From positions 1-64,000 of the forward strand of contig JAFGQN010000134.1 in assembly GCA_016935665.1 (NCBI GenBank): a stretch of DNA of 64,000 bases, written 5' to 3'. Under the pieces are notes generated by a model. That model was not told the DNA's origin. It made no database searches and worked only from the letters and a program-made list of their open reading frames with translations. Every line of letters starts with the position of its first letter. Position 1 is the first letter of the stretch. A program made the position numbers and the translations under genes. This document shows positions 2,567-58,958 of the stretch, piece by piece. Source of the stretch: Deltaproteobacteria bacterium (GTDB lineage: Bacteria > Myxococcota_A > Polyangia > JAAYKL01).

Positions 2567-5149
2567 TCACTCGACGATAATCACCATGTCACATCCGGCG
2601 TTCGCCTCTGCCGCGTTATCATCTTCGTTGCACTCATTCACTTTCATCTGAGCCGATTCCCCATCAACGCGAACCTCGAATGCATACTGGGCCTTCACCT
2701 CAATATCGGTTATTTCCGTTGACAACCGCAAAACGCCCCCCGGCAGGATGGACTGGTCTGTTACAATGGAATAAATTATTTTCCTGTCACCAGGTGCGGT
2801 CTGATAAAATTCAACCAGTACCCCTGCCGGTACGCCCCTCGCACCAATATTGGTCACCGCAGCCTGCAACTGGATGTAGTTGTTTCCGCATTGCGCCGAT
2901 GCATTCAGGTCAACGGTCAGATTGGGAGCATTCCTTACCCGTCCCCCCTGAACATTGGTTCGATAATTATTGAGCCCGGTTTCGGTCCAATTCCTTTTTT
3001 CAATGGCTGGGACGGCGCCTGAAGACTGGATATTGGTAATATGATAGCCGTAATCACTCCACACAGGACGCGTGCCCACCCATTCATCCTTCGTATCCCC
3101 AAGAACCCATATGCCGCCAGTTCCGGCCTGAAGCCATTCGGGAAGCGCATCGATGGAAGAGACATTGTAATGCGCCTGCCAGAATTCAAAACACTTATCT
3201 CTATTGACCTGATCTCGATTTGCGGCGACAACAATCTCGGAATTGCCGTCGTAATCCACATCCACGACCAGCGGATATTCGTGACGGGTTCTTGACGAAT
3301 TCGGACGGGGACCGCCAGCCAAAAGCTCGCTGCCTGTTGCGCCGTCAAAAATATGCAGGAAGCACTCATCGTTATAAACCACCTCTGAAATGCCATCGCC
3401 CTGGAAATCAAACACACTGGACCCGGTGGCACTGGAACTCACATCGCGCGTCGCCGTCGTCCAAAGCACAAAGTCAGTACCTGTTCGAAGCGTATTGCAA
3501 GTGCCACCAACCCTTGGCGGTGTCGGCAGGCAATCGGGATCATACACACTATAGAATCCGCGCCCGGCCGCGGAAACCTCCGGAAATCCATCATTGTCAA
3601 AATCGGAAACCGTAGGCGCGCCTCCCACACCACCACCTTCCAGCAAAAATTCACCATTCACCCATGTTCCCCCAACACCTATTAAAACCGCCCCGCTTGC
3701 GCCTTCAAGAACCTCAATAAGGCCATTTCGAATAACAATAACTTCTGGAAGGGTGTCCACATTCAGGTCGGCAACAGCGGTAAATCCAGCATACGACTGG
3801 CTGCCGCGATTCCATAGCGTCTTTGGCAATCCACTGCTGTCAATACCGTGCGCCTGTTCGCCATTGGTAACATCCAAAAATCCGTCACCATCGAGGTCCG
3901 CCACGGACACAACGGAGAGAGACGCACTATGAATCTGGCAGCTGCCAAAACGGAACAAATCAGCGTCGGGATTATCGAGTTGGCTCCCATTGAGCGCATT
4001 GCACCCCGCAATGAGATCCGGCGCGCCGTCCTGATTCAAATCTGCAACAGCAGGGGTGAACCTGGCCGGATCAACATCACTGCGTTCAAATTTGACAACT
4101 GGTGGTGATACGTCGCCATCGAGCACAATCAATCCGCGATTTGGAGCGTGATACACAATTTCCATTGCCGGATCGTCATCGATTTGAGCCAACGCAACCA
4201 TTTCATCAATGGGTTTGGGATCATCCACAATCCAGAGGACTTCCCCGTTTTCCGGATCGGCATCCGCCGGTCGACCGTTTAATGCAACAAGAATCACCTG
4301 AGTATCTGCCCAGTTTGATATGTCACCATTATAGACAGGAACGACTACATCGGGAATGCCGTCGCCAGTGATGTCTCCAACCGCCGGCGTGGTCATCACA
4401 TCCTGATAAAATACACCGTTGTGCATAACCCCCGGCCAATGCCATTCCGGTGTGATGTCAATTTCGTTGAACGCCAGGGTCGTCTCACAGTCTATTCCTT
4501 TGGGAATGGGCATACATTGATTCACGCTTGGCTCACAATATGAACCGGCGTCAAAACAATCAAAATCGTCCGCGCAACTGTTACCAGGCAACACACATTC
4601 GCCATTCAGGCACAGTTGTCCCTGCGCGCAGCATACCTCAAAATTGCTGCCACACACAGATTGGTTTTCAGGGCAGTTCGCCGCACAAACGATGTCATCG
4701 AGACAAACCTGACCCGCTGCGCAACAAACAGATTTGTTTTCGCCACATCGCTCCTGTTCGGCGGGGCATATGGGCAGACACAGCAGCCGCTCGACACATT
4801 CCTCATCTGCGCCACAACAAACCGTATTGTTGGCACAGGTCTTTTCAAACGAACACCCCGCGAGATTGGAATCTGTCCCCGCATCGCTGTCTGTCGAGTT
4901 CTCAGGTGACGAATCCATACCACTGTCACTGTCGCCGGCCCCGCTGCAAATTGCGCGATTGGCACACTCCGGATCGGCACAGTCAACCAACTTGTCTCCA
5001 TCATTGTCCAATCCATCCAGACATGTGCCGGCAGTGGCGCCTTCTTTGCCGTTCCCCTTCCCGTCCGAACTTTCATTGGAACTACACCCCACCATTCCCC
5101 CCAGCAACACTGCAACAACAATAAACATTTTCTTAAAACCAATAATCAA
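2567..5149 (-). CDS. VCBS/FG-GAP beta-propeller lipoprotein
   Basis: An 860-residue secreted lipoprotein. The signal peptide ends in the lipobox GMVGC (Cys22). A MopE/Stc-type segment (CLDGLDNDGDKLVDCADPEC) is followed by an S/D linker and a Cys-rich region with repeated C-C-A-x-G-Q-x-C units (about 95-200). Residues about 240-690 hold at least seven D-x-x-x-D-G-x-x-D/E blades (DITGDGIPDV, DLNQDGAPDL, DLDGDGFLDV, DFDNDGFPEV, DVDYDGNSEI), i.e. calcium-binding FG-GAP/VCBS propeller repeats. A CARDB-like Ig domain (VTNIGARGVPAGV) closes the protein. The TTG start is chosen because AAAGGAG sits 7 nt upstream; the next ATG is 7 codons in and lacks that spacing. Role: probably cell-surface adhesion or ligand binding; no enzyme motif is visible. 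Confidence 0.88.
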   Translation of the reverse strand: MIIGFKKMFIVVAVLLGGMVGCSSNESSDGKGNGKEGATAGTCLDGLDNDGDKLVDCADPECANRAICSGAGDSDSGMDSSPENSTDSDAGTDSNLAGCSFEKTCANNTVCCGADEECVERLLCLPICPAEQERCGENKSVCCAAGQVCLDDIVCAANCPENQSVCGSNFEVCCAQGQLCLNGECVLPGNSCADDFDCFDAGSYCEPSVNQCMPIPKGIDCETTLAFNEIDITPEWHWPGVMHNGVFYQDVMTTPAVGDITGDGIPDVVVPVYNGDISNWADTQVILVALNGRPADADPENGEVLWIVDDPKPIDEMVALAQIDDDPAMEIVYHAPNRGLIVLDGDVSPPVVKFERSDVDPARFTPAVADLNQDGAPDLIAGCNALNGSQLDNPDADLFRFGSCQIHSASLSVVSVADLDGDGFLDVTNGEQAHGIDSSGLPKTLWNRGSQSYAGFTAVADLNVDTLPEVIVIRNGLIEVLEGASGAVLIGVGGTWVNGEFLLEGGGVGGAPTVSDFDNDGFPEVSAAGRGFYSVYDPDCLPTPPRVGGTCNTLRTGTDFVLWTTATRDVSSSATGSSVFDFQGDGISEVVYNDECFLHIFDGATGSELLAGGPRPNSSRTRHEYPLVVDVDYDGNSEIVVAANRDQVNRDKCFEFWQAHYNVSSIDALPEWLQAGTGGIWVLGDTKDEWVGTRPVWSDYGYHITNIQSSGAVPAIEKRNWTETGLNNYRTNVQGGRVRNAPNLTVDLNASAQCGNNYIQLQAAVTNIGARGVPAGVLVEFYQTAPGDRKIIYSIVTDQSILPGGVLRLSTEITDIEVKAQYAFEVRVDGESAQMKVNECNEDDNAAEANAGCDMVIIVE

Positions 5150-5353
5150 GCAGAAACTCCTTTAATTCGAAATGACGTCAATTACATCAACAGAAACCCA
5201 CCTGGACGTATTCGGGCGTTATCGAATTGTGAAAATTGCACCGACTCCGTGTTATGGTTCCCGATTCACATAGTCACCGATTTTAACAGGAAAAAAATGC
5301 CGCTGCATCTAAAAACAATTGGACGCGATCGATACGGAGAAACGAGCTGGCCA

Positions 5354-6316
5354 TCATTTCTCTAAAAGTGACGCCACAAACTGAATCACGCGCGATTTGT
5401 CAAACGCTCCATGACCGCCATTTATCTCATCGTATGTCACATCATACCCGGCGGCCTTTGCTTTTTGGGACAGCATCAGATTCCCCCTGTATAATCCCAG
5501 CGAATCCCATTTGCCTATGCTGATATACACCGGTTGTCGCTTGTCTGCCTTCTTCATCGTATTAAAAATAAAGACGTTTTCCCAATCACTCTCACTACCG
5601 AAAAAACGCTTCTGCACCGACAGCACACTCTTGATGCCCTTCAATCTCGGGGTTACCCCCACCAAGCGCCCCAGCTGTTCCCGCAGGGTGAATGTCTCAT
5701 TCTCTTTAATAAATTTTTCCAGTTCCACATCTTTGGCAAACACCGAAAAAGGATAATGTCCCGCAGAAATTATCACAGCCCCATGAAAGTACTGGGGATG
5801 ATTAAAAAAGACATACGACAGACTGGTTCCCCCCATGGACGTACCGATCAATATTTTTTTTGAAGCGGAAAAGTGATGTGTCTGGTCCAGCTTCATCAAG
5901 ACATCGTTTATGAATGCAGCGACCAATCCGCTGGACTGCGCACTGTTTTTGGGAATAAGCATTGCTTCGGGGCCTGCCGAAAATGAAACCACAACACTCG
6001 AAGGCGCCTTGTCCCTGATATACTCATGCAGAAAGAGCATGGCGCGTTCGTAGGACGACTCATCCCCACCCTGACCATGAAAATAGTAAAACACGGTTTC
6101 CGGCGGCGCATCGGTCGTTGTACGGTAATCATAAATATTCAGCCGAAATGGTCCTGTTTGCATTTTTGTTCTAATGGCGTCATACTCAATACCGCCTTTA
6201 ACGCCATGTTTATCTGACATCTCCCCTCCTTTGGAGCATCCCTGAATTAGCACCAAAATAGTCGATGCGCCCACCAAACACAAAATCAACTTGAAAACCG
6301 CTTTAAAAAAAACCAT
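5354..6316 (-). CDS. Alpha/beta-hydrolase (esterase-like) lipoprotein
   Basis: 320 residues from the ATG at 6316, chosen over a start 15 codons upstream because GAGAGG lies about 7 nt before it and the signal sequence begins there. The signal peptide ends in LIQGC (Cys27). The fold is the alpha/beta-hydrolase family: oxyanion strand YYFHGQGGDE (about 77-86), nucleophile elbow GTSMGG (Ser159) and a C-terminal GGHGAF with the likely catalytic His (about 302). Spacing resembles the esterase D / feruloyl-esterase group. It is expected to sit in the outer or inner membrane leaflet facing the periplasm. Substrate unknown. Catalytic residues are seen; the esterase label is family inference. Confidence 0.85.
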   Translation of the reverse strand: MVFFKAVFKLILCLVGASTILVLIQGCSKGGEMSDKHGVKGGIEYDAIRTKMQTGPFRLNIYDYRTTTDAPPETVFYYFHGQGGDESSYERAMLFLHEYIRDKAPSSVVVSFSAGPEAMLIPKNSAQSSGLVAAFINDVLMKLDQTHHFSASKKILIGTSMGGTSLSYVFFNHPQYFHGAVIISAGHYPFSVFAKDVELEKFIKENETFTLREQLGRLVGVTPRLKGIKSVLSVQKRFFGSESDWENVFIFNTMKKADKRQPVYISIGKWDSLGLYRGNLMLSQKAKAAGYDVTYDEINGGHGAFDKSRVIQFVASLLEK

Positions 6317-6419
6317 CTTATCGCCTCTCACAATTTTAATCGCATTATGCCCAGAGACCATGCCCAGTATGCTCGGGCAAAAAGTTTCGACAATGATAGC
6401 AGGAAAAGACTTGTCCTAT

Positions 6420-6698
6420 TCCATGTCAACGATAAATTTTTTTTCGGTAGTCATTTTTTGCGCAATCTCGGCATATCGTTCACCCGCCGACAACTGTATC
6501 TCACCATTTACCCGGCACCAATGCAACGCTGGGATTTGTACATGGCCACTGCCGGCACAAGGCGGTAAATAAACTGCTCCCCTGTATTCTTCTCTTCAAA
6601 ATCTGGCAATTCGTTGCTTTTTTAATTGCGGGCAAACCCATAGAGGGCGCCTGTGTTTGCCTGAAATGGCATATGAAAGGGTGTATCAAAGTTGCGAT
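6420..6698 (-). pseudogene. Broken minus-strand coding remnant, unknown
   Basis: No complete gene here. On the minus strand, protein-like sequence switches frames: one frame reads FDTPFHMPFQANTGALYGFARN, then a stop, then ELPDFEEKNTGEQFIYRLVP. A neighbouring frame continues with GSGHVQIPALHWCRVNG and GERYAEIAQKMTTEKKFIVDM and ends in TAG near 6418-6420. The shared protein-like composition of these successive pieces suggests one gene broken by a nonsense mutation and at least one frameshift. I do not recognise the family. It follows directly on the small frame at 6699-6881, so that frame may be its N-terminal part. Confidence 0.35.
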
Positions 6699-6881
6699 TC
6701 AAAGAAACCGTTTCGATTTGTTTCGAACCGTGCGCCCAACCCGCCATCGACGCCCGTTGACGCGTTCAAAAAACGTAATGGAGATTTCCAGCTGCTCCAT
6801 ATGACTGATGCAATTTGCGACAATGTCAACCTGGATATAGCCGTTTGTTACCAATGCGCTGCTATAAAAAAATTCAACCAT
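6699..6881 (-). CDS. Small hypothetical protein
   Basis: A 60-residue frame whose ATG overlaps the 3' end of the zinc-ribbon gene by 8 nt, an arrangement typical of translational coupling. It is predicted to be strand-rich at the N terminus (FFYSSALVTNGYIQVDIVA) and ends in a basic stretch (RVGRTVRNKSKRFL). No known domain is recognised. The sequence downstream contains further protein-like fragments in other frames, so this may be the 5' part of a longer gene that has been disrupted. Confidence 0.4.
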   Translation of the reverse strand: MVEFFYSSALVTNGYIQVDIVANCISHMEQLEISITFFERVNGRRWRVGRTVRNKSKRFL

Positions 6882-7074
6882 GCATTTGACTTAGAAGATA
6901 CTGTCCACAATCGCTGCAATAGAAATCCTGACGTTTGCACTTTTCTGCATGGCCTGCACCACTGCAAACGTTTTCGGGAATGAGGCAGTTGAGTGTTTCA
7001 CCGCACTCGGGACAAAACCGAACTGGTGAAAAGGCATGTTTGTGGCTCACATTGGTACATTTTTTTTTACGCAT
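6874..7074 (-). CDS. Small double-zinc-ribbon protein
   Basis: 66 residues starting at the ATG at 7074, preceded by AGGA with 8 nt spacing (an in-frame codon further upstream lacks a ribosome site). Two Cys pairs, CPEC (about 22-25) and CSDC (about 57-60), with further Cys/His residues between them (NVCSGAGHAEKC), make one or two treble-clef/zinc-ribbon sites likely. The protein is Lys/Arg-rich at its N terminus. A nucleic-acid or protein adaptor role is possible but not shown. It lies in AT-rich DNA with other small minus-strand frames and may belong to an acquired patch. Confidence 0.6.
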   Translation of the reverse strand: MRKKKCTNVSHKHAFSPVRFCPECGETLNCLIPENVCSGAGHAEKCKRQDFYCSDCGQYLLSQMHG

Positions 7075-7107
7075 ATTGATAATCCTGTTGCGTTTCTGCT
7101 TCCACAC

Positions 7108-7554
7108 ACCACGCTCAATATGTATTTACCGCGGCCCCCATGGTTAAAGGCGTGATATGTGGAAGCGCATCCATTTTCAAATTGCCAATCGCCCTAAACA
7201 GGCAACAAATGCAAAGTGGTCTGCCATTCATGTCCGCCACTGCCAGAACGTTACAGTCGGTGCGCTTTACGGGCAGAAACGGAACGTTTCTTTTTTTTGA
7301 TGTCTTCAATCTGATTCAAAAGAATCGATTTTTACGTTTTTTCGTTTGTACCGTCGTGGTATTTCATCCGATCGCAGAAGGACGATGCAATCTGATTTGT
7401 TGTGGGTCCAGTAACCTCCCGCAAACGAATGAATGGCAGGCACAGTTTCAAATGAACAAAGTCCGTCCAGATACAAAATCGCGTCCTGTTCAACGGTCGC
7501 TCCACATTTTTTCGTCGCAGCGCCGCTCCGGTGTGCGTATTCATATTTTGCGTT
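7108..7554 (-). other. AT-rich stretch with two protein-like frames lacking good starts
   Basis: Two minus-strand frames look protein-like but neither can be called a gene with confidence. The first is open from 7554 to a TGA at 7306 and reads GATVEQDAILYLDGLCSFET and PAIHSFAGGYWTHNKSDCIV; it follows a TAG and has no ATG/GTG/TTG near its beginning. The second begins with a TTG near 7312 or an ATG at 7309 and ends at 7115, containing KRTDCNVLAVADMNGRPLC and a CxxC-like ICCLF. They overlap by only a few bases, so they may be pieces of one frameshifted gene. No family is recognised. Confidence 0.3.
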
Positions 7555-7834
7555 CTACTTTCTCAAATAATGTGAAACGAGAAGAAATGCGAAAATGAGA
7601 TGCTGAATCAACACGCTACATTCGTTGCATTGCCCAATTATAAAATTGGATTGACTGCTACAAAAAACATTAATTGTCTTCTTGCTATCTGTTTTTTTGC
7701 CATCAATACAAAAAAGATGCGCCAACAGGTTATGCAAAAACAGAACCATAATCATAAAAATCCCCAAAATGCTTTTTTTCAGGAATTTACCAGAAAAATA
7801 CAAGGCCATCTGCAAATAAACAAATAGCAATGGC
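7555..7834. other. AT-rich region without a supported gene
   Basis: Strongly AT-rich, with homopolymer A and T runs. A hydrophobic minus-strand frame (7555-7863) exists, but it has no ribosome-binding site, begins inside the tandem repeat at 7835 and is Phe/Leu/Ile-rich, as expected by chance in such DNA. I see no promoter or RNA gene that I can support. Confidence 0.4.
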
Positions 7835-7898
7835 CCATCAAAATGATAGACCATTGCCATCAAAATGATAGACCATTGCCATCAAAATGATGTGATTG
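7835..7898. repeat. 22-bp direct repeat, 2.9 copies, each with a dyad
   Basis: Two exact 22-bp copies (7835-7856 and 7857-7878) and a third, 20-nt diverged copy (7879-7898). Each contains the small dyad ATCA-AAA-TGAT, and copies 1 and 2 end in CCATTG, the inverse of CAATGG found just before the array (7828-7833). The 22-bp period places the dyads two helical turns apart on one face of the DNA. About 200 bp upstream of a sigma-54 activator gene, this is a good candidate for cooperative regulator binding. Confidence 0.7.
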
Positions 7899-8062
7899 TC
7901 AAAACCGTGGTTAAGTTAATATAGTCCGATAGAATCCAGTGATTTTACTGTTTAGCCCCGAACAACCGTTTCACGACAAATTCACAGCACAGTAGGATGA
8001 TTGCTTTTAACGACTTCCAGCAACTGAAGCGATACGTGTTTTCTGGATAAATGACTGGTCGC

Positions 8063-8084
8063 AACTTGAATTCAAATTCAAGTT
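8063..8084. promoter_or_regulatory. Perfect 22-bp palindrome upstream of the activator gene
   Basis: Arms AACTTGAATT and AATTCAAGTT are exact inverse complements separated by CA. It ends 19 nt before the ATG at 8104, so bound protein or a folded RNA leader would block transcription or translation. With the first gene downstream being a DNA-binding regulator, autoregulation is the simplest inference. The palindrome is seen; the function is inferred. Confidence 0.65.
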
Positions 8085-8103
8085 AAAATTGAATGGGACA
8101 AAC

Positions 8104-9126
8104 ATGAACATACGAAATCCATCAAAAAAAAACATCGCTCAAAAAAAACATAAGGAGGGAAAGTCCAAAGATGGCTCATCTATCGTTGCACACAGTCTCG
8201 CCATGCAAACTTTGACCAATATGGCCAGACGAGTTGCCAATGTGGATGCCACCGTATTAATCACTGGAGAAAGCGGAGTGGGAAAGGAGCGAATCGCGAC
8301 ATTGCTGCATAGGGCTTCGTCACGAGTCAAGCGTCCTTTTGTGTCGGTGAATTGCGCGGCAATTTCCGAAACATTGCTGGAAAGTGAGCTGTTCGGTCAT
8401 GCCCGTGGCGCGTTTACCGGAGCCGTGGCCACTCGCCCCGGATTGTTTGAAGCTGCCCATCGGGGCACCATCCTGCTCGATGAAATTGGTGAAATATCTC
8501 CAGGTATGCAGGTCAAACTTTTAAGGGTGCTGCAGGAGAGAGAGATACGAAGAATTGGCGAAAATGTTAGCCGCGCCATCGATGTACGCATCATCGCTGC
8601 TACCAATCGGGATCTTGCAGCTGCAGTTGCCGATGGTTTGTTTCGAGAGGATTTGTACTATCGGCTAAATGTAATTGAGTTGCACGTACCGCCGCTGAGA
8701 CAGCGGCCAGAAGACATTCTGCCGTTGGCCCATGAGCTTCTGATGGCCGCTTCAAAAAAAAATAATCGCGATGTTTCCGGATTCCATGAGGATGCTGTCA
8801 GTCTCCTGCTTCAATATCATTGGCCAGGCAATGTTCGGGAACTTGAAAACACGATGGAACGAGCCGTTTTATTCTCTCAACACCGCTGCGTAATTGCCGC
8901 TGATTTGCCTGAAGCAATTCATCTATCTTCCACATCCGCCTCTTTCGCGTCAGCTCCTGCTGATGCCCCGGTGGAAAGTCTGTACGAAGTGGAACGGAAA
9001 CACATTCTTACAGTCCTTAAAGCCAATAACGGCAATCAGTCCCGTACGGCCAAACAGCTGGGCATTGGCACCGCCACACTATATCGGAAATTGCGACAAT
9101 ACGATCATTCATCATCTAATGATTAG
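8104..9126 (+). CDS. Sigma-54-dependent activator, PspF-like (no sensor domain)
   Basis: 340 residues from ATG 8104 (a TTG at 8089 is an alternative; GGGA lies 5 nt before the ATG). After a basic N terminus of about 30 residues comes a complete AAA+ enhancer-binding domain: Walker A GESGVGKE, sigma-54 loop GAFTGA, Walker B TILLDEIGE and the WPGNVRELEN sensor region. The C terminus carries a Fis-type helix-turn-helix (NGNQSRTAKQLGIGTATLYR). There is no receiver, GAF or PAS domain, as in PspF, so activity must be controlled by a partner protein, by abundance or by autoregulation. The 22-bp palindrome and the direct repeats upstream are possible binding sites. Target genes are not evident; the nearest neighbour points the opposite way. 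Confidence 0.9.
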   Translation: MNIRNPSKKNIAQKKHKEGKSKDGSSIVAHSLAMQTLTNMARRVANVDATVLITGESGVGKERIATLLHRASSRVKRPFVSVNCAAISETLLESELFGHARGAFTGAVATRPGLFEAAHRGTILLDEIGEISPGMQVKLLRVLQEREIRRIGENVSRAIDVRIIAATNRDLAAAVADGLFREDLYYRLNVIELHVPPLRQRPEDILPLAHELLMAASKKNNRDVSGFHEDAVSLLLQYHWPGNVRELENTMERAVLFSQHRCVIAADLPEAIHLSSTSASFASAPADAPVESLYEVERKHILTVLKANNGNQSRTAKQLGIGTATLYRKLRQYDHSSSND

Positions 9127-9247
9127 CGACAAGACAAAACACATCCGTGAGTTTTTCTTCAACATCAACAAATTCAATTTATATTCTCTTGAACAACAAT
9201 TTTCACAACAGATATGGCGGGGGATTCAGCCTGCAGGCTGTGGCGGG

Positions 9248-9538
9248 TCAGTATCGGCCGCGTCCGGGTCCTCGACCACGTCCACCGTCGCCGCGATTGG
9301 GGCGAGCCTGAGCTTCATTCACTTTCAATGCACGTCCATCAATCTCTTTTTCATGAAGGGCTGCTATCGCTTTTTTGGCATCCCCATCCTGCATTTCCAC
9401 AAACGCAAACCCGCGTGGACGTCCCGTCTCACGGTCAGTAATGACGTTTATCGAATCCACTTCGCCAAATTCTCCAAAAAGAGCGCTGAGTTGTGACTCA
9501 TTCAAACTGAATGGCATATTGCCTACATACATTTTCAT
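9248..9538 (-). CDS. RRM-type RNA-binding protein with Gly/Arg tail
   Basis: 96 residues from the ATG at 9538, which has AGGA 8 nt upstream; the longer in-frame extension lacks a ribosome site. A single RNA recognition motif: RNP2 (MYVGNM) at the N terminus and RNP1 (RGFAFVEM) near residue 42, with the typical beta-alpha-beta spacing. The C-terminal tail is Gly/Arg-rich (RGDGGRGRGPGRGRY). Single-RRM proteins of this layout occur in cyanobacteria and many proteobacteria and are often cold-induced RNA chaperones; that role is inferred. The gene has about 150 nt of upstream sequence before the next signals, room for a structured leader. Confidence 0.9.
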   Translation of the reverse strand: MKMYVGNMPFSLNESQLSALFGEFGEVDSINVITDRETGRPRGFAFVEMQDGDAKKAIAALHEKEIDGRALKVNEAQARPNRGDGGRGRGPGRGRY

Positions 9539-9794
9539 TCTATTCATCCTAAAATCCCGAGCCTCGAAAAAAAGCAACTGCCGCAAACGCTCGGCGATTT
9601 TATATGGCAGCTGCAGCCATTTCACGGAACACCCGAAAAACGAAAGCCTACTTTACTCGCATTGTGCAAATTAAGCACGATTAAAATGAAATACTGTCAT
9701 TAAAGTTACGTTTTTTTGGCAAATCGCTGCGTTAGCAGGGATAATTACGTCTTCAAATGACAATTCCATTCAACAATCCAGGTTTGAGAGAGGG

Positions 9795-10205
9795 CTATTT
9801 TTCAGGCTCGCCTTTCCACCGGCCAAAGCCGCCCCAATTGTATATCCGGGAATATCCGGCCGGCGCCAATTTCTTTTTTGCTGCAGACTGGGCGCGTCCA
9901 CCGGTTTCGCAATACAGAATAATTTTTTTGTCTTTGGGCAAATCTTCGCCAGAAGCCGCCACATCCCCGTTGGGAATGTTGATGGCTGTTGGGATATGCC
10001 CTTTTTTGTATTTTCGATTCGGACGCACATCCACAATGCGGTATTCCCCCTCGCCCACAGTGGCGCCGGAATCAATCAGCGCCTTCAACGATTCTGAATC
10101 GTCGATGCCTTTGGACTCGCCTGTTGGAAATGTGTCATAGCCAGTGCATGCCGCCATGACAAACACCACAAACGTTAACATACCCAAAGCTTTGAATTTT
10201 CTCAT
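9795..10205 (-). CDS. Rhodanese-like lipoprotein
   Basis: 136 residues. The ATG has GGGAGG about 6 nt upstream. The signal peptide ends in lipobox VMAAC (Cys19). The rest is a single rhodanese domain: IVDVRP strand, KKGHIPTAINIP motif, and active-site loop YCETGGRAQ with Cys and Arg in the CxxxxR arrangement. It probably acts in the periplasm as a sulfurtransferase or persulfide carrier; the donor and acceptor are unknown. It is monocistronic, with no redox partner adjacent. Confidence 0.9.
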   Translation of the reverse strand: MRKFKALGMLTFVVFVMAACTGYDTFPTGESKGIDDSESLKALIDSGATVGEGEYRIVDVRPNRKYKKGHIPTAINIPNGDVAASGEDLPKDKKIILYCETGGRAQSAAKKKLAPAGYSRIYNWGGFGRWKGEPEK

Positions 10206-10301
10206 TCTTGTCCTCCCGTTTATCGATACATAACTATCTTGCGTTTTGTTGTGTTGCGTTTTCTCTGATTTTCTTCATCATTGGTTGTACCAATGTCAAA
10301 C

Positions 10302-12181: not shown

Positions 12182-13333
12182 ATGAAATGCGCATCACACC
12201 CAGCAGGGTGGTTATTTATGGCCTGTTGTCTACTGGCGACATTCGCAGCTGTGAGCTGCAACGATTCCCCTTCCGAATCAAATACCGACACCGAAACGCA
12301 AACCGATTCAGATGCAGATTCTGATTCGGATGGAGACTCCGATTCGGATGGGGACTCCGACACCGATGGAGACTCCGATTCGGATGGAGACTCCGACTCG
12401 GATGGAGACTCCGATTCGGATGGAGACTCCGACTCGGATGGAGACTCCGATTCGGATGGGGACTCCGACACCGATGGAGACTCCGATTCGGATGGGGACT
12501 CCGACTCGGATGGAGACTCCGATTCGGACGGGGACACGGATTCGGATACTGACTCCGACAGCGACAGTGACAACACACTATCGCCCGGGTGCGGAAAACC
12601 TATTACCATTCCCAACAGAAAAACCCAGCAAACGATGGAACATGAGGGCGACACGCGCTACTACCTTCTCCACGTGCCGGACAACGCCGATAATCAGACC
12701 CCGCTCATGCTCATTTTTGGTTTGCATGGCTACGACATGAACAACGTGGCCGTGCAGGATTTGTACAACTTTACGCAAAGATCCAACGGAAAAGCCATTA
12801 CCGTGCTGCCCCAGGGCGAAGGTCCGCCCCCCGGAGATGTATCCCACTGGGGCGACCACGTTCTTGAATCCACCTGGATGGCTGGTGAAACCAACTACGG
12901 ATATATTCAAAAACTGATTACCACCATCGGCGAAAATTACTGTATCGATACCAGCAAAATCTTCATTGCGGGGTTCAGTATGGGCGGTTTTTTCACCAAC
13001 TCCATTGCCTGTGATCACAGCGACTGGTTCCTTGGATTTGCCCCCATTGCAGGTGGCGGTCCCCAGGCGTGCGGTGCTGATGCAAAGCCCGCCATTATGG
13101 TCCAGCATGGCACTACGGACGACATTGTGGAATTCAGCAGTGGTGAGGGCAGTCGGGACTTCTGGGTGAAGCAAAACGGCTGCAGTGATCAGACTACGCA
13201 GTCATTTTCCGGATGCAAGAGCTACACTGGTTGCCCCGACGATGCCCCCGTACACTGGTGCACCGGCAACTACAACCACTACATCGATTCCACCGCAGTG
13301 GGCAACATCTGGGAATTCTTTAACGGCCTCTAA
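12182..13333 (+). CDS. PHB-depolymerase/feruloyl-esterase-type lipoprotein with GDSDSD spacer
   Basis: 383 residues, GGGAGGAAATTT just before the ATG. The signal peptide ends in AAVSC (Cys26). Residues about 35-130 are an almost pure Asp/Ser/Gly/Thr spacer with period GDSDSD. The catalytic part begins at about 135 (GCGKP...) and is a polyhydroxybutyrate-depolymerase/LpqC-type esterase: oxyanion FGLHGYD, nucleophile GFSMGG, acid HGTTDD and a C-terminal NYNHYI with the probable His. Two further Cys pairs (GCSDQ, SGCKS, TGCP, HWCTG) suggest disulfides. The spacer probably holds the enzyme away from the outer membrane and may bind calcium. Substrate could be a polyester or an aryl ester of plant polymer; not determinable here. 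Confidence 0.85.
12334..12535 (+). repeat. 18-bp coding tandem repeat (GDSDSD)
   Basis: About eleven near-identical copies of an 18-nt unit (GACTCCGATTCGGATGGA) inside the esterase lipoprotein. Variation is almost only in third positions and GGA/GGG, with occasional ACC for TCG (D-T instead of D-S). The unit is a multiple of three, so copy-number change alters spacer length without breaking the frame. Confidence 0.9.
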
Positions 13334-43835: not shown

Positions 43836-46134
43836 TTGTCCCCCCTGAAAGAAAGTTGGCGGCAACTTTCGAGTTGATCATCTGCAGATAATTTCCCGCG
43901 CGGCTCACCTCGCTGCATCTGCCGTCGTGCTCGATACGATACGCAATCTGCGGCAGCAGTTGAAGGGCCTGATGAATGTTTCCATTATGCATATGCAGTT
44001 CAGTCAGATAGTTGGCACACATTAATTCGGCAAACAGAGCTCCGGTTTGTCTCGACAATGCCAGCGCCGTTTCAAAGGAATTCATGGCGTTGTCCGGCTG
44101 TGCCAGCGCCAGTTCGATTTTTCCCCGAATGCAGTACAATTCCGGCAAATAGGGCCGTTCCGAATGTGTCAGGGCAATGTCCAGCCCACAATTGACAATA
44201 TCAAAGGCCTCATCCAGCCGATTGTTGCCAAGTTCGATATTGGAAAGGACACACCGCACCAGGGACTGGAACCCCAACTCTCCATTGCGCGCCATATGAT
44301 TGAAAAATCCATCTCGCACCATTTTTGCGCCCGCTTCCGGGTCACCGCTTTTCGCAATGGCGTTGCCCTTGAAAATCATGCCCACACCTTCGTAAAAGAC
44401 AAACTGGTGATTCCTGGAAACGTCGATGAGCCTGTCCGCATAATCGGCGGACTTCTCAATATCACCGAAGAGGTACTCCAGCCAGGCGCCGGTTTGAAAG
44501 GAGATGGCAATGCTGAAGGGATGATGTAAATCCCTGGCATACGTATCCAGCTGTTCGAAGCTGCGTCTGGCGTCCTGCAGTCGTCCGGTATGAAACAGAC
44601 AGAGCGACTGACACATCATATAAAACACATAGGGATCCTGACCGTGATGCTCCAGCAGCTCATTGTCGAAGTGATAGCGAAAAATAAACTGATTCAAATG
44701 GTTGAAACAACCATTGAAATTGCCCATCCAGAAATGGGTATTGGCCAAAGCAATATGCGCCTGAAGCACAATCTGCTCATTGTTCATCTCGGTGCCCTGT
44801 TGCAGGTACTCTCCGGCAAAGGTCAACGCTTCATCGAGCTGCAGACTCAACAGCAAAGTGGACCACAATCCGAACGCCGCCGGAGAAATCTGTCCCTCTT
44901 TATGGTGTTTCAGGTTTTGCGATATGGCTTCACGATACACCTTTACCGCCTCGTTGTCTGCCCATCCGGCCACGCTGCGCAGGCAAATACACTGTTTAAG
45001 CAGAATCCGGGATTTCAGCTCCGCCAGCTCGTCGGATTGACTTGCTGTATCTATCAGATAGAGCGCACGCCGGAACAGTTGAGCGGCCGCCGAATAGTTG
45101 GATTTTGCCATTTCCTCTATTCCACCGGTAAAAAGCAAATGAACCTGCTCCGTACTCTGCGCCAGATGCTGCAGTTTTCGCTCGATGACTTTGCGATGAA
45201 CGCCAAGCAATCGGGCGGCAGCGCTTTTATTATCGCTGCTGTGGGCCAACGCCTTTTGAACAAGTCCCAATTCCACTTTTTCCAGCCTGTTGTTCAGGGG
45301 CAATTCCAGAATCTGGTCCAGCAGAGATGCCAGCTGAGAGTTGGCATCTGGCAGCACTGTGGGGGCCGCGTGAATCTGCACCTGTTTTAACGAAATATTC
45401 TTTCCTTCATTCAGTGTAACGATGCGTTCGACCACATTGCGAAGCTGACGAATATTTCCCGGCCACCTGGACGCACACAGATACGCCATGGCATCTGTGT
45501 CAAACAGAACATCCCGATGGGCCAGATGCAAAAAAAACTGAACCAACCCAGGAATATCTTCCCGATGTTTTTCCAGTGCGGGAATGTGAACATGAAACAC
45601 ATTCAGTCGATGGAACAAATCTTTGCGGAAACGGCCCTCTTTGACCATCGTCTCCAGATTTGCATGGGTGGCCGCGACCACGCGACCGGTGAATTGCTGA
45701 TGGCGTGTGCTGCCCACAGGTCTGAACGTACGGGTATCCAGTACTCGCAGCAGCCGCGTTTGCAGTAAAAGGGGAAGCTCGCCAATCTCATCCAGAAACA
45801 GTGTCCCCTCCGCCACCTGCGATAAAAGCCCGATATGGTTGGCCACCGCACCGGTAAATGCGCCTTTTTCATGGCCAAACAACTGGGACTCAATCAGGTT
45901 TTCCGGAATGGCCCCACAGTTTAAATCAATGAGCGGCGCGCTGCTTCGGTTTCCCCATTTGTGAATCAGTCGAACAATATGCTCCTTGCCCGCACCGGTT
46001 TGCCCCGTCACCAGCACCGCATTGGGAGTACTGCTGATCTTTCGAACAAATTGGTAAATTTCCTGCATAATGCCGGATTCACACAAATGAAAGACGGGTT
46101 TGAATTCCGGCGTGCTCGCCACTGACTGCTTCAT
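43822..46134 (-). CDS. Sigma-54 activator with C-terminal TPR array
   Basis: 770 residues from ATG 46134, preceded by GGGGGGACGC, a ribosome site almost identical to that of the DUF917 gene it overlaps. Layout: short N terminus with no receiver or GAF, AAA+ domain with Walker A TGQTGAGKE (about 43-51), loop GAFTGA (about 91-96), Walker B TLFLDEIGE, then a Fis-type HTH (SAAARLLGVHRKVIERKLQHL, about 305-325) and about 400 residues of helical TPR-like repeats to the C terminus. The TPR region in this position replaces the usual N-terminal sensor, as in some MalT/STAND-like regulators. It presumably activates sigma-54 promoters and probably the DUF917 operon it belongs to. Confidence 0.88.
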   Translation of the reverse strand: MKQSVASTPEFKPVFHLCESGIMQEIYQFVRKISSTPNAVLVTGQTGAGKEHIVRLIHKWGNRSSAPLIDLNCGAIPENLIESQLFGHEKGAFTGAVANHIGLLSQVAEGTLFLDEIGELPLLLQTRLLRVLDTRTFRPVGSTRHQQFTGRVVAATHANLETMVKEGRFRKDLFHRLNVFHVHIPALEKHREDIPGLVQFFLHLAHRDVLFDTDAMAYLCASRWPGNIRQLRNVVERIVTLNEGKNISLKQVQIHAAPTVLPDANSQLASLLDQILELPLNNRLEKVELGLVQKALAHSSDNKSAAARLLGVHRKVIERKLQHLAQSTEQVHLLFTGGIEEMAKSNYSAAAQLFRRALYLIDTASQSDELAELKSRILLKQCICLRSVAGWADNEAVKVYREAISQNLKHHKEGQISPAAFGLWSTLLLSLQLDEALTFAGEYLQQGTEMNNEQIVLQAHIALANTHFWMGNFNGCFNHLNQFIFRYHFDNELLEHHGQDPYVFYMMCQSLCLFHTGRLQDARRSFEQLDTYARDLHHPFSIAISFQTGAWLEYLFGDIEKSADYADRLIDVSRNHQFVFYEGVGMIFKGNAIAKSGDPEAGAKMVRDGFFNHMARNGELGFQSLVRCVLSNIELGNNRLDEAFDIVNCGLDIALTHSERPYLPELYCIRGKIELALAQPDNAMNSFETALALSRQTGALFAELMCANYLTELHMHNGNIHQALQLLPQIAYRIEHDGRCSEVSRAGNYLQMINSKVAANFLSGGTNVIN

Positions 46135-57605: not shown

Positions 57606-58958
57606 TCATTCATTCAGTGCATCGAGTTTTCGGTAAATGGTGCGTGTGGCAATGCCCAGCAGTTGCGCCGCCAGTTTTTTATCGCCTTTGGTGTGGCGCA
57701 GCGTTTCCCGAATGACGCGCAGTTCAATCTCTTCAAGGGGAGTGCCAATACTGATATTGAGTTGCCCCTGATAGCGCTCCTCGGTAGCGATGCGCGTTGG
57801 CAAATCCGCCACATCCAGCATGGGATGACGCGACAACACTACCGCTCTTTCAATTACGTTTTCCAGTTCCCGCACATTGCCCGGCCAATAATATCCCGAC
57901 AAAATATCCAGTGCTTCCTTGGAAACGCTCTCTATCGGTTTACTGTTTTTTATGGCGTATCGATTGACAAACAAATCCACCAGCAACGGTACATCGTCGA
58001 GACGCTGTCGCAAGGGAGGCAGATTCACAATGATCACGTTTAGCCGGTAGTACAAATCCTCACGAAAATTTCCCCGTTCCACCTCGGCTTCCAAATCCCG
58101 GTTGGTGGCCGCCAGCACCCGCACATCCACTTTTCGCGCGGTTCCACCGAGCGGTTCAATTTCGCGTTCCTGCAACACGCGCAAAAGCTTAACCTGCACC
58201 GAGCCACTCATTTCGGCCACTTCATCCAGAAAGATGGTCCCTTCGTGGGCCATGGAAAATCGACCATCGCGACGTTTGACCGCTCCGGTAAACGCCCCCT
58301 CCTCGTAACCAAACAATTCTGCCTCAAGAATGGATTCCGGAAGTGCCGCGCAGTTAACCGCCACAAACGGTTTATCGCTGCGAGTGGAGTTTTCGTGAAT
58401 AAAACGCGCCAGAACCTCCTTGCCGGTTCCCGATTCGCCTGTAATCAATATGGTTGCCACAGATGGTGCGGCCTGCTGGGCCACTTCCAACGTCCTGCGA
58501 AACACGGGACTGTTCCCCACCACCTGGCGCACTTCCACTTTTTTAAGCAGTTGCTTCAAGTTGCGGTTTTCCACCACCAGAAAGTGCTTCTCCAGCGCCT
58601 TCTTTACCGTTTTTACAATCGCAGTCCGCTTAATGGGCTTTTCCACAAAATCGTATGCGCCGTTTTTAATGGCTTCAACAGCACTTTCCACGGTGCCATA
58701 GGCGGTCATGACAACCACTTCGCTATCCGGTGAAATGGTGCGCAAAGTGTCCAGCAACTGCAACCCATCCATTCCTGGCATACGCATATCTGTGAGAACC
58801 ACATCCACGGTCTGCCGGCGGCACACGTCCAGCGCATCTCGACCACTCCCCGCGCTAAAGACCCGCAGGTTCTCTTTTTTAAAAACCTTTTCCAACGCCA
58901 AAACATTGTTTCGGTCGTCATCCACAATAAGTATTGTCGGCTGTTGATGTGTCTCCAT
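57606..58958 (-). CDS. NtrC-type sigma-54 response regulator
   Basis: 450 residues. Receiver domain (1-120) with acidic pocket DDD at 13-15, phospho-acceptor VVLTDMRMPGMDG (Asp about 56), switch Thr in MTAYGT and Lys in EKPIKR. AAA+ domain with Walker A GESGTGKE, sigma-54 loop GAFTGA and Walker B TIFLDEVAE, and a Fis-type HTH at the C terminus (KLAAQLLGIATRTIYRKLDAL). It should be phosphorylated by the neighbouring histidine kinase and activate sigma-54 promoters. No obvious target operon is adjacent; the candidates are the zinc-ribbon cluster upstream or distant genes. Confidence 0.93.
   Translation of the reverse strand: METHQQPTILIVDDDRNNVLALEKVFKKENLRVFSAGSGRDALDVCRRQTVDVVLTDMRMPGMDGLQLLDTLRTISPDSEVVVMTAYGTVESAVEAIKNGAYDFVEKPIKRTAIVKTVKKALEKHFLVVENRNLKQLLKKVEVRQVVGNSPVFRRTLEVAQQAAPSVATILITGESGTGKEVLARFIHENSTRSDKPFVAVNCAALPESILEAELFGYEEGAFTGAVKRRDGRFSMAHEGTIFLDEVAEMSGSVQVKLLRVLQEREIEPLGGTARKVDVRVLAATNRDLEAEVERGNFREDLYYRLNVIIVNLPPLRQRLDDVPLLVDLFVNRYAIKNSKPIESVSKEALDILSGYYWPGNVRELENVIERAVVLSRHPMLDVADLPTRIATEERYQGQLNISIGTPLEEIELRVIRETLRHTKGDKKLAAQLLGIATRTIYRKLDALNE

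Follow-up and report, generated by a model that had tools for sequence, protein, structure and literature searches.

Organization of the locus

In the window, which is the whole 64-kb stretch of DNA analyzed, a gene encoding a sigma-54 activator lay on the plus strand at positions 8104–9126, and the region upstream of it contained a 22-bp tandem repeat and, closer to the gene, an inverted repeat. On the minus strand to the left of the repeats, translated comparison revealed protein-level conservation in three successive frames (ORFs A, B, and C), which was common to the window, contig C107 of the window's own genome (G000), and the congeneric genomes G001 and G002. The divergent A-B-C operon and a sigma-54-like promoter in front of it had been missed in the preliminary description of this region. 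The gene for an RRM RNA-binding protein was located at 9248–9625 on the minus strand, convergent with the activator gene.

Sensorless activator and its homologues

The activator contained an AAA+ domain with GAFTGA (PF00158, residues 27–193 of 340, E 3.5e-70), an AAA lid, and a Fis-type HTH_8 domain (residues 294–333, E 5.9e-14). GAFTGA and GESGVGK were both present in the translation, and we take them to be the sigma-54 interaction and Walker A motifs, respectively. There was an in-frame TTG at 8089 as an alternative start to the ATG at 8104. The stop-to-stop frames of the activator and its two orthologues were only 371, 353, and 377 codons, and since the frame in the window is limited to 371 codons, the absence of a sensor is not the result of a start-codon error. 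As had been described previously, the activator is, by domain prediction, a protein without a sensor domain.

The closest activators were those of G002:C247 (77% identity) and G001:C59 (72% identity). Homologous activators of the same class (e.g., G033:C12 and G009:C355) showed 61–65% identity over the AAA+ and HTH regions and had an HTH helix near-identical to that of the window activator; however, most of them had stop-to-stop frames of 554–630 codons, leaving room for an N-terminal sensor, as compared with 371 codons in the window. One homologue, at G006:C36 (63% identity, 342 codons), was sensorless like the window protein. No tandem dyad was found in its genome, there was no match to ORF B in the 19.5 kb around the activator, and the opposite strand gave a sigma-54 score of 4.4 at best. 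This activator gene (L096) follows a short gene that may encode a phasin-like protein and is itself preceded by a sigma-54-like site with a score of 12.6. The HTH helix was the same in all three orthologues and nearly the same in distant homologues (L005, L006, and L011), and therefore the helix does not by itself single out the dyad. Two further sigma-54 activator genes were present in the window, both on the minus strand, at 45154–46077 and 57621–58529, with frames of 788 and 454 codons, respectively.

Tandem repeats

The earlier report of nearly three copies of a 22-bp unit, each with an ATCA-AAA-TGAT dyad, was confirmed. Unit 1 (7835–7856, dyad 7837–7847) and unit 2 (7857–7878, dyad 7859–7869) were identical 22-mers, and a partial third unit (7879–7891, dyad 7881–7891) contained 13 of the 22 bases, the dyad included; no strand was assigned to any of them. 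Units 1 and 2 are putative upstream activating sequence (UAS) sites, unit 1 being the promoter-proximal one. The two linkers between the window dyads were identical, and there were two units each in G001, G002, and C107; the comparison suggests that the third unit in the window is a recent extra copy.

Among 14 genomes of the family, the tandem dyad occurred in four places, each 5' of the window activator or an orthologue, so that it was found at the activator locus in all three genomes of the genus and in none of the 11 remaining family genomes. The leaders of the activator orthologues had two tandem dyads, 22 bp apart in G002 and 20 bp apart in G001. When the three congeneric genomes were searched with the 22-mer, allowing up to three mismatches, only the two window copies were found. 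A search for the dyad pair with up to three mismatches and a spacing of 22 bp, which misses G001 with its spacing of 20 bp, gave four places in the three genomes, all at A-B-C loci, and zero control hits; the sole added place was C107 of the window's own genome. Thus, of the two motifs for which a genome search had been proposed, the repeats were found again, at C107, and the inverted repeat was found nowhere else with up to three mismatches. Judged from these comparisons, which draw on four dyad-bearing loci of common descent and not on independent cases, the 22-bp tandem repeat is a conserved cis-element and in all likelihood a genuine regulatory element.

Unit 1 together with the sequence to its left formed a further inverted repeat (GCAATGG/CCATTGC, 7823–7861). 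This structure was marked as resembling a minus-strand terminator and was located in the interval from the UAS to the leftward promoter.

Leftward sigma-54-like promoter

A putative sigma-54 -24/-12 element, TGGTTCTGTTTTTGCA (GG-N10-GC), was located at 7733–7748 on the minus strand, upstream of ORF A and directed left. A GG-N10-GC element between the repeats and ORF A, on the strand of ORF A, was present in all four dyad-bearing loci, and the genome of the window encodes rpoN. Scores were calculated with a manually entered matrix (TGGCACG-N4-TTGCW), with which the consensus TTGGCATNNNNNTTGCT printed in the available text of PMC6615313 is compatible. The scores were 9.9 for the window, 12.6 for G002, 12.5 for C107, and 6.8 for G001; the last is weak, since scores of this size arise in the background roughly once per kb of strand, and the G001 element lined up with those of the other loci in two of five alignments.

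The distances from the dyad centers to the T of TGG were 94, 116, and 138 bp in the window, 94 and 116 bp in G002, 95 and 117 bp in C107, and 84 and 104 bp in G001, the last being shorter than the others by about one helical turn. Dyad sites 84–138 bp upstream of TGG, with units 20–22 bp apart and conserved phasing, correspond to the layout expected for a UAS. On the activator strand, the best sigma-54 scores between the repeats and the activator gene were only 2.6, 3.9, and 4.3. The sequence MATCAAAATGAT occurred at 23 places in the three genomes, seven of them in A-B-C loci and 16 elsewhere (12 of the 16 inside mechanical ORFs of at least 110 aa). A sigma-54 score of at least 9 was found within 300 bp of five of the seven copies in A-B-C loci versus one of the 16 others, and the two copies in A-B-C loci that fell short were both from G001.

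Divergent ORFs A, B, and C

ORF A (7332–7544, minus strand, 70 aa) had a conserved TRF..WTD...LC.PF....NQI core. ORF B (7115–7309, minus strand, 64 aa, TTG start) belonged to a zinc-finger-like CxxC...LCxxCL family, and ORF C (6874–7107, minus strand), with a likely start at 7074 (66 aa), had a zinc-ribbon-like sequence, CPECGE...CSDCG...QMHG. In pairwise comparisons of A, B, and C based on protein-guided alignments, changes were most frequent at the third codon position in every one of the 26 pairs; the pairs overlap one another, and the margin was small for some that involve A. By this pattern of substitution, all three ORFs look coding.

A Pfam search gave no match up to E 1 for the A and B of the window, and zinc-ribbon matches below threshold only for C; the outcome was the same for the C107 copies. 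Relatives of B were found in 11 of 59 genomes searched, every one in the same taxonomic family, and relatives of C in three of 14 family genomes searched, all belonging to the genus of the window. When a named genome collection, which may leave out records of the window's own genome, was scanned with B, three loci were found, on contigs of the two congeners already identified. The predicted structure of B was a modest model (pLDDT 74.8, pTM 0.53); its best Foldseek match had an E of 2.3, with several B-box fingers among the matches, and a comparison of B with PDB sequences gave nothing better than E 0.46. The predicted model of C was unusable (pLDDT 57.0). No match was found between a phage collection and window positions 7400–8110, and among the titles and abstracts listed in searches of an open-access library, none dealt with the dyad motif or the A-B-C operon. 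Because the B of the window has Arg at the nearly invariant first Cys and ORF C of G002 has an in-frame stop, the A-B-C operon may be decaying in places.

Inverted repeat and other elements near the activator gene

The inverted repeat AACTTGAATT-CA-AATTCAAGTT (8063–8084, no strand assigned) had been described as a perfect palindrome. It does have 10-bp arms and ends 19 nt before the activator ATG, but the 2-nt CA spacer is not self-complementary, and the palindrome is an interrupted one. It was the sole inverted repeat in the window with arms of at least 10 and a loop of at most 6, while a mean of 0.4 per window was expected by chance (20 Markov simulations); when the local 711 bp were simulated 1000 times, such a repeat arose in 1.1% of the runs. 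The inverted repeat is thus only marginally unexpected by chance. No further copy with up to three mismatches was found in the genome, and neither orthologous leader had arms of at least 7 with a loop of at most 8, so that both were without a counterpart. A dispersed operator was accordingly rejected, the repeat being single-copy and absent from the orthologous leaders, and for the same reasons nothing ties it to the tandem repeats. As an RNA hairpin, a 56-nt piece gave -10.7 kcal/mol (z -2.27), whereas the fold of the 126-nt leader was not unusual (z -0.37); an mRNA hairpin is possible.

A conserved block, CACAGTAGGATGATTG, was located on the activator side at 7988–8003 on the plus strand. 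Exact CACAGTARGATGATTG was found only at the activator locus in the three congeneric genomes; with one mismatch, it was found at two other places in G000, together with one control hit in G001. The block may be part of the activator's own promoter. A weak sigma-70-like site, TTGTCA-18-TATAGT (7896–7925, plus strand), abutted the last repeat and is a candidate activator promoter, one such site being found against a shuffle mean of 1.8, which is not above chance. A search of positions 5000–10300 against Rfam (E<=1) gave two matches far below the gathering score (24.2 vs 80 and 15.8 vs 120 bits).

Other loci with ORFs A, B, and C

At C107, the gene on the right-hand side was an RRM gene in place of the activator gene, and the repeats, the sigma-54 element, and A-B-C were all kept. 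A fifth A-B-C locus, G002:C57, kept the sigma-54 element (score 12.3) and showed no tandem dyads, which indicated that A-B-C do not strictly require the UAS. At both C107 and C57, the nearest activator found was an NtrC protein of the receiver type whose HTH was a different one, and the C107 dyads would therefore need service in trans. RRM genes as the target were first suggested by the single site before the C107 RRM gene, but an RRM regulon was rejected, as that site shows the same geometry to the A-B-C on its other side. Elsewhere, an RRM gene was located directly 3' of the activator gene in G002:C247 (L003/L091) and in the position of the activator gene at C107 (L043/L093). A long Ser-Asp-Gly-Asp low-complexity repeat was encoded at approximately 12260–12570 on the plus strand of the window; the protein concerned had weak prolyl-oligopeptidase/esterase matches, and similar repeats occurred near C107.

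Discussion

The preliminary description had combined the 22-bp repeats and the palindrome into one ordered leader of the activator gene. This combination was not borne out: the inverted repeat had neither an orthologous counterpart nor a second copy, and the repeats lie at a conserved distance from the A-B-C promoter. We consider it likely, from the conserved sequence and geometry, that the tandem repeats are a UAS for the divergent sigma-54 promoter of A-B-C, bound by the adjacent sensorless activator. Dimers of this activator would bind the ATCA-N3-TGAT dyads, which at a spacing of 22 bp would share about the same helix face, and would assemble into a hexamer on the UAS. With the DNA looped over approximately 94 bp, the activator would open the sigma-54 promoter at 7733–7748, which would drive A-B-C leftward, and the same sites may also allow the activator to repress its own rightward transcription in the manner of PspF. 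In this scheme, we infer the identity of the binder, the looping, and the autorepression.

The activator gene itself is probably not the main customer of the repeats. If it were, the repeats would be primarily an operator that sets the activator level, bound by the activator itself or another regulator, and A-B-C would be bystanders. The presence of the repeats upstream of the activator in all three congeneric genomes, the sigma-70-like site abutting the last copy, and the second conserved block between the repeats and the gene (3/3) agree with such an operator, as does the report, in the available text of PMC3709507, that PspF, acting from the psp enhancer, represses its own gene, which is driven by sigma-70. 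However, the repeats at C107 have no adjoining activator, their distance is fixed relative to the leftward sigma-54 element, and the sigma-70-like site was not above chance, and we regard a primary operator for the activator gene as unlikely. The preliminary proposal that the amount of the activator is controlled may still hold, but a level-setting leader found no support, as the repeats keep their distance to the leftward promoter at four loci.

The repeats could, with rather low probability, be an enhancer of A-B-C bound by another enhancer-binding protein (EBP), the adjacent activator acting elsewhere. The window's genome contained 38 matches to the activator at E<=1e-20, and both the receiver-type NtrC proteins near C107 and C57, with their different HTH, and the near-identical HTH helices of distant homologues are in favor of another binder. 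On the other hand, the dyads and an activator of at least 72% identity co-occurred in the same three genomes, and C57, linked to a receiver-type activator, is without dyads. Lastly, part of the IHF consensus, WATCAANNNNTTR, is similar to ATCAA, but the repeat unit is a dyad without a TTR end and the consensus is not a dyad. It is very improbable that the repeats serve IHF or another nucleoid protein as tandem sites for bending the intergenic DNA and do not bind an activator; PspF is helped by IHF at the psp enhancer (available text of PMC3709507), but sites for general bending should be present at many promoters, and the tandem was found only at A-B-C loci.

PspF is not known to carry a sensor domain, and the window activator, whose AAA+ domain starts at residue 27, resembles it in this respect. 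In E. coli, PspF is encoded divergently from the sigma-54 operon pspABCDE (PMC6003685, available text), and the arrangement here is likewise divergent; pspA has two UAS sites (PMC3709507, available text), as compared with three dyads in the window. The window activator was nevertheless below the NCBIfam pspF cut-offs (TIGR02974, 263.9 vs 443.55 bits; PRK11608, 213.6 vs 529 bits), and the A, B, and C of the window gave no PspA match in Pfam; on these scores, the window activator is not PspF. The proposed target operon also differs, encoding three small proteins that are orphans or rich in Cys, and autorepression here is something that we infer. In the available texts of PMC6615313 and PMC4641369, the usual case is an EBP gene next to its target operon with the UAS approximately 100–250 bp upstream, and in Clostridiales, 170 of 263 EBPs control one operon (PMC6615313). 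The EBP regulons of Desulfovibrio vulgaris (PMC4641369) and Clostridiales (PMC6615313), identified by the same comparative logic as used here, likewise have a sigma-54 operon that adjoins or diverges from the EBP gene with the UAS upstream; the window dyad differs from the TGT-N10/12-ACA type that those texts give for fifteen EBP groups.

The B family extends beyond the A-B-C loci. A sigma-54 score of at least 11 within 260 bp upstream was found for seven of 29 B-family matches, which were all those outside A-B-C loci below 1e-3 in the stretches fetched and whose windows ended at the profile match and not at a mapped start codon, versus nine of 251 control ORFs, which were mechanical (at least 200 aa, all frames) (Fisher p 0.0004). 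This difference depended on the threshold: at a score of 8, the counts were 11/29 vs 42/251; at 9, 7 vs 30; at 10, 7/29 vs 20/251 (p 0.013); and at 12, 6 vs 7 (p 0.0008). The comparison suggests a lineage-wide link between the B family and sigma-54. The CxxC...LCxxCL proteins L132, L145, L141, L136, L156, L144, and L134 had strong sigma-54-like sites 74–147 bp upstream, examples of which are TGGCACGGCTGTTGCT and TGGCACACTTGTTGCT. Four further relatives of C, none with tandem dyads like those of the window, gave mixed results: G000:C210 scored 10.9 (155 bp upstream) and G002:C57:10662 scored 12.4 (118 bp), G000:C119 scored 13.4 at 519 bp upstream with another short ORF between, and G002:C57:17239 had no score above 4.2.

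The UAS reading describes an ordinary kind of bacterial enhancer, and the unfamiliar part is the uncharacterized target operon. What had been called an ordered leader becomes a regulatory unit that can be tested and for which a target, a three-gene operon, can be named. Repeats that precede an activator gene can thus be part of the control region of a gene on the opposite strand. It is conceivable, though we would not expect it, that A-B-C also supplies the missing sensor, one of its products, e.g., B or C, keeping the activator in check and releasing it in response to metal, redox, or sulfide stress. If true, the result would be a feedback circuit of the PspA/PspF kind, based on a lineage-specific and undescribed family of zinc fingers, other members of which would also be under sigma-54 control.
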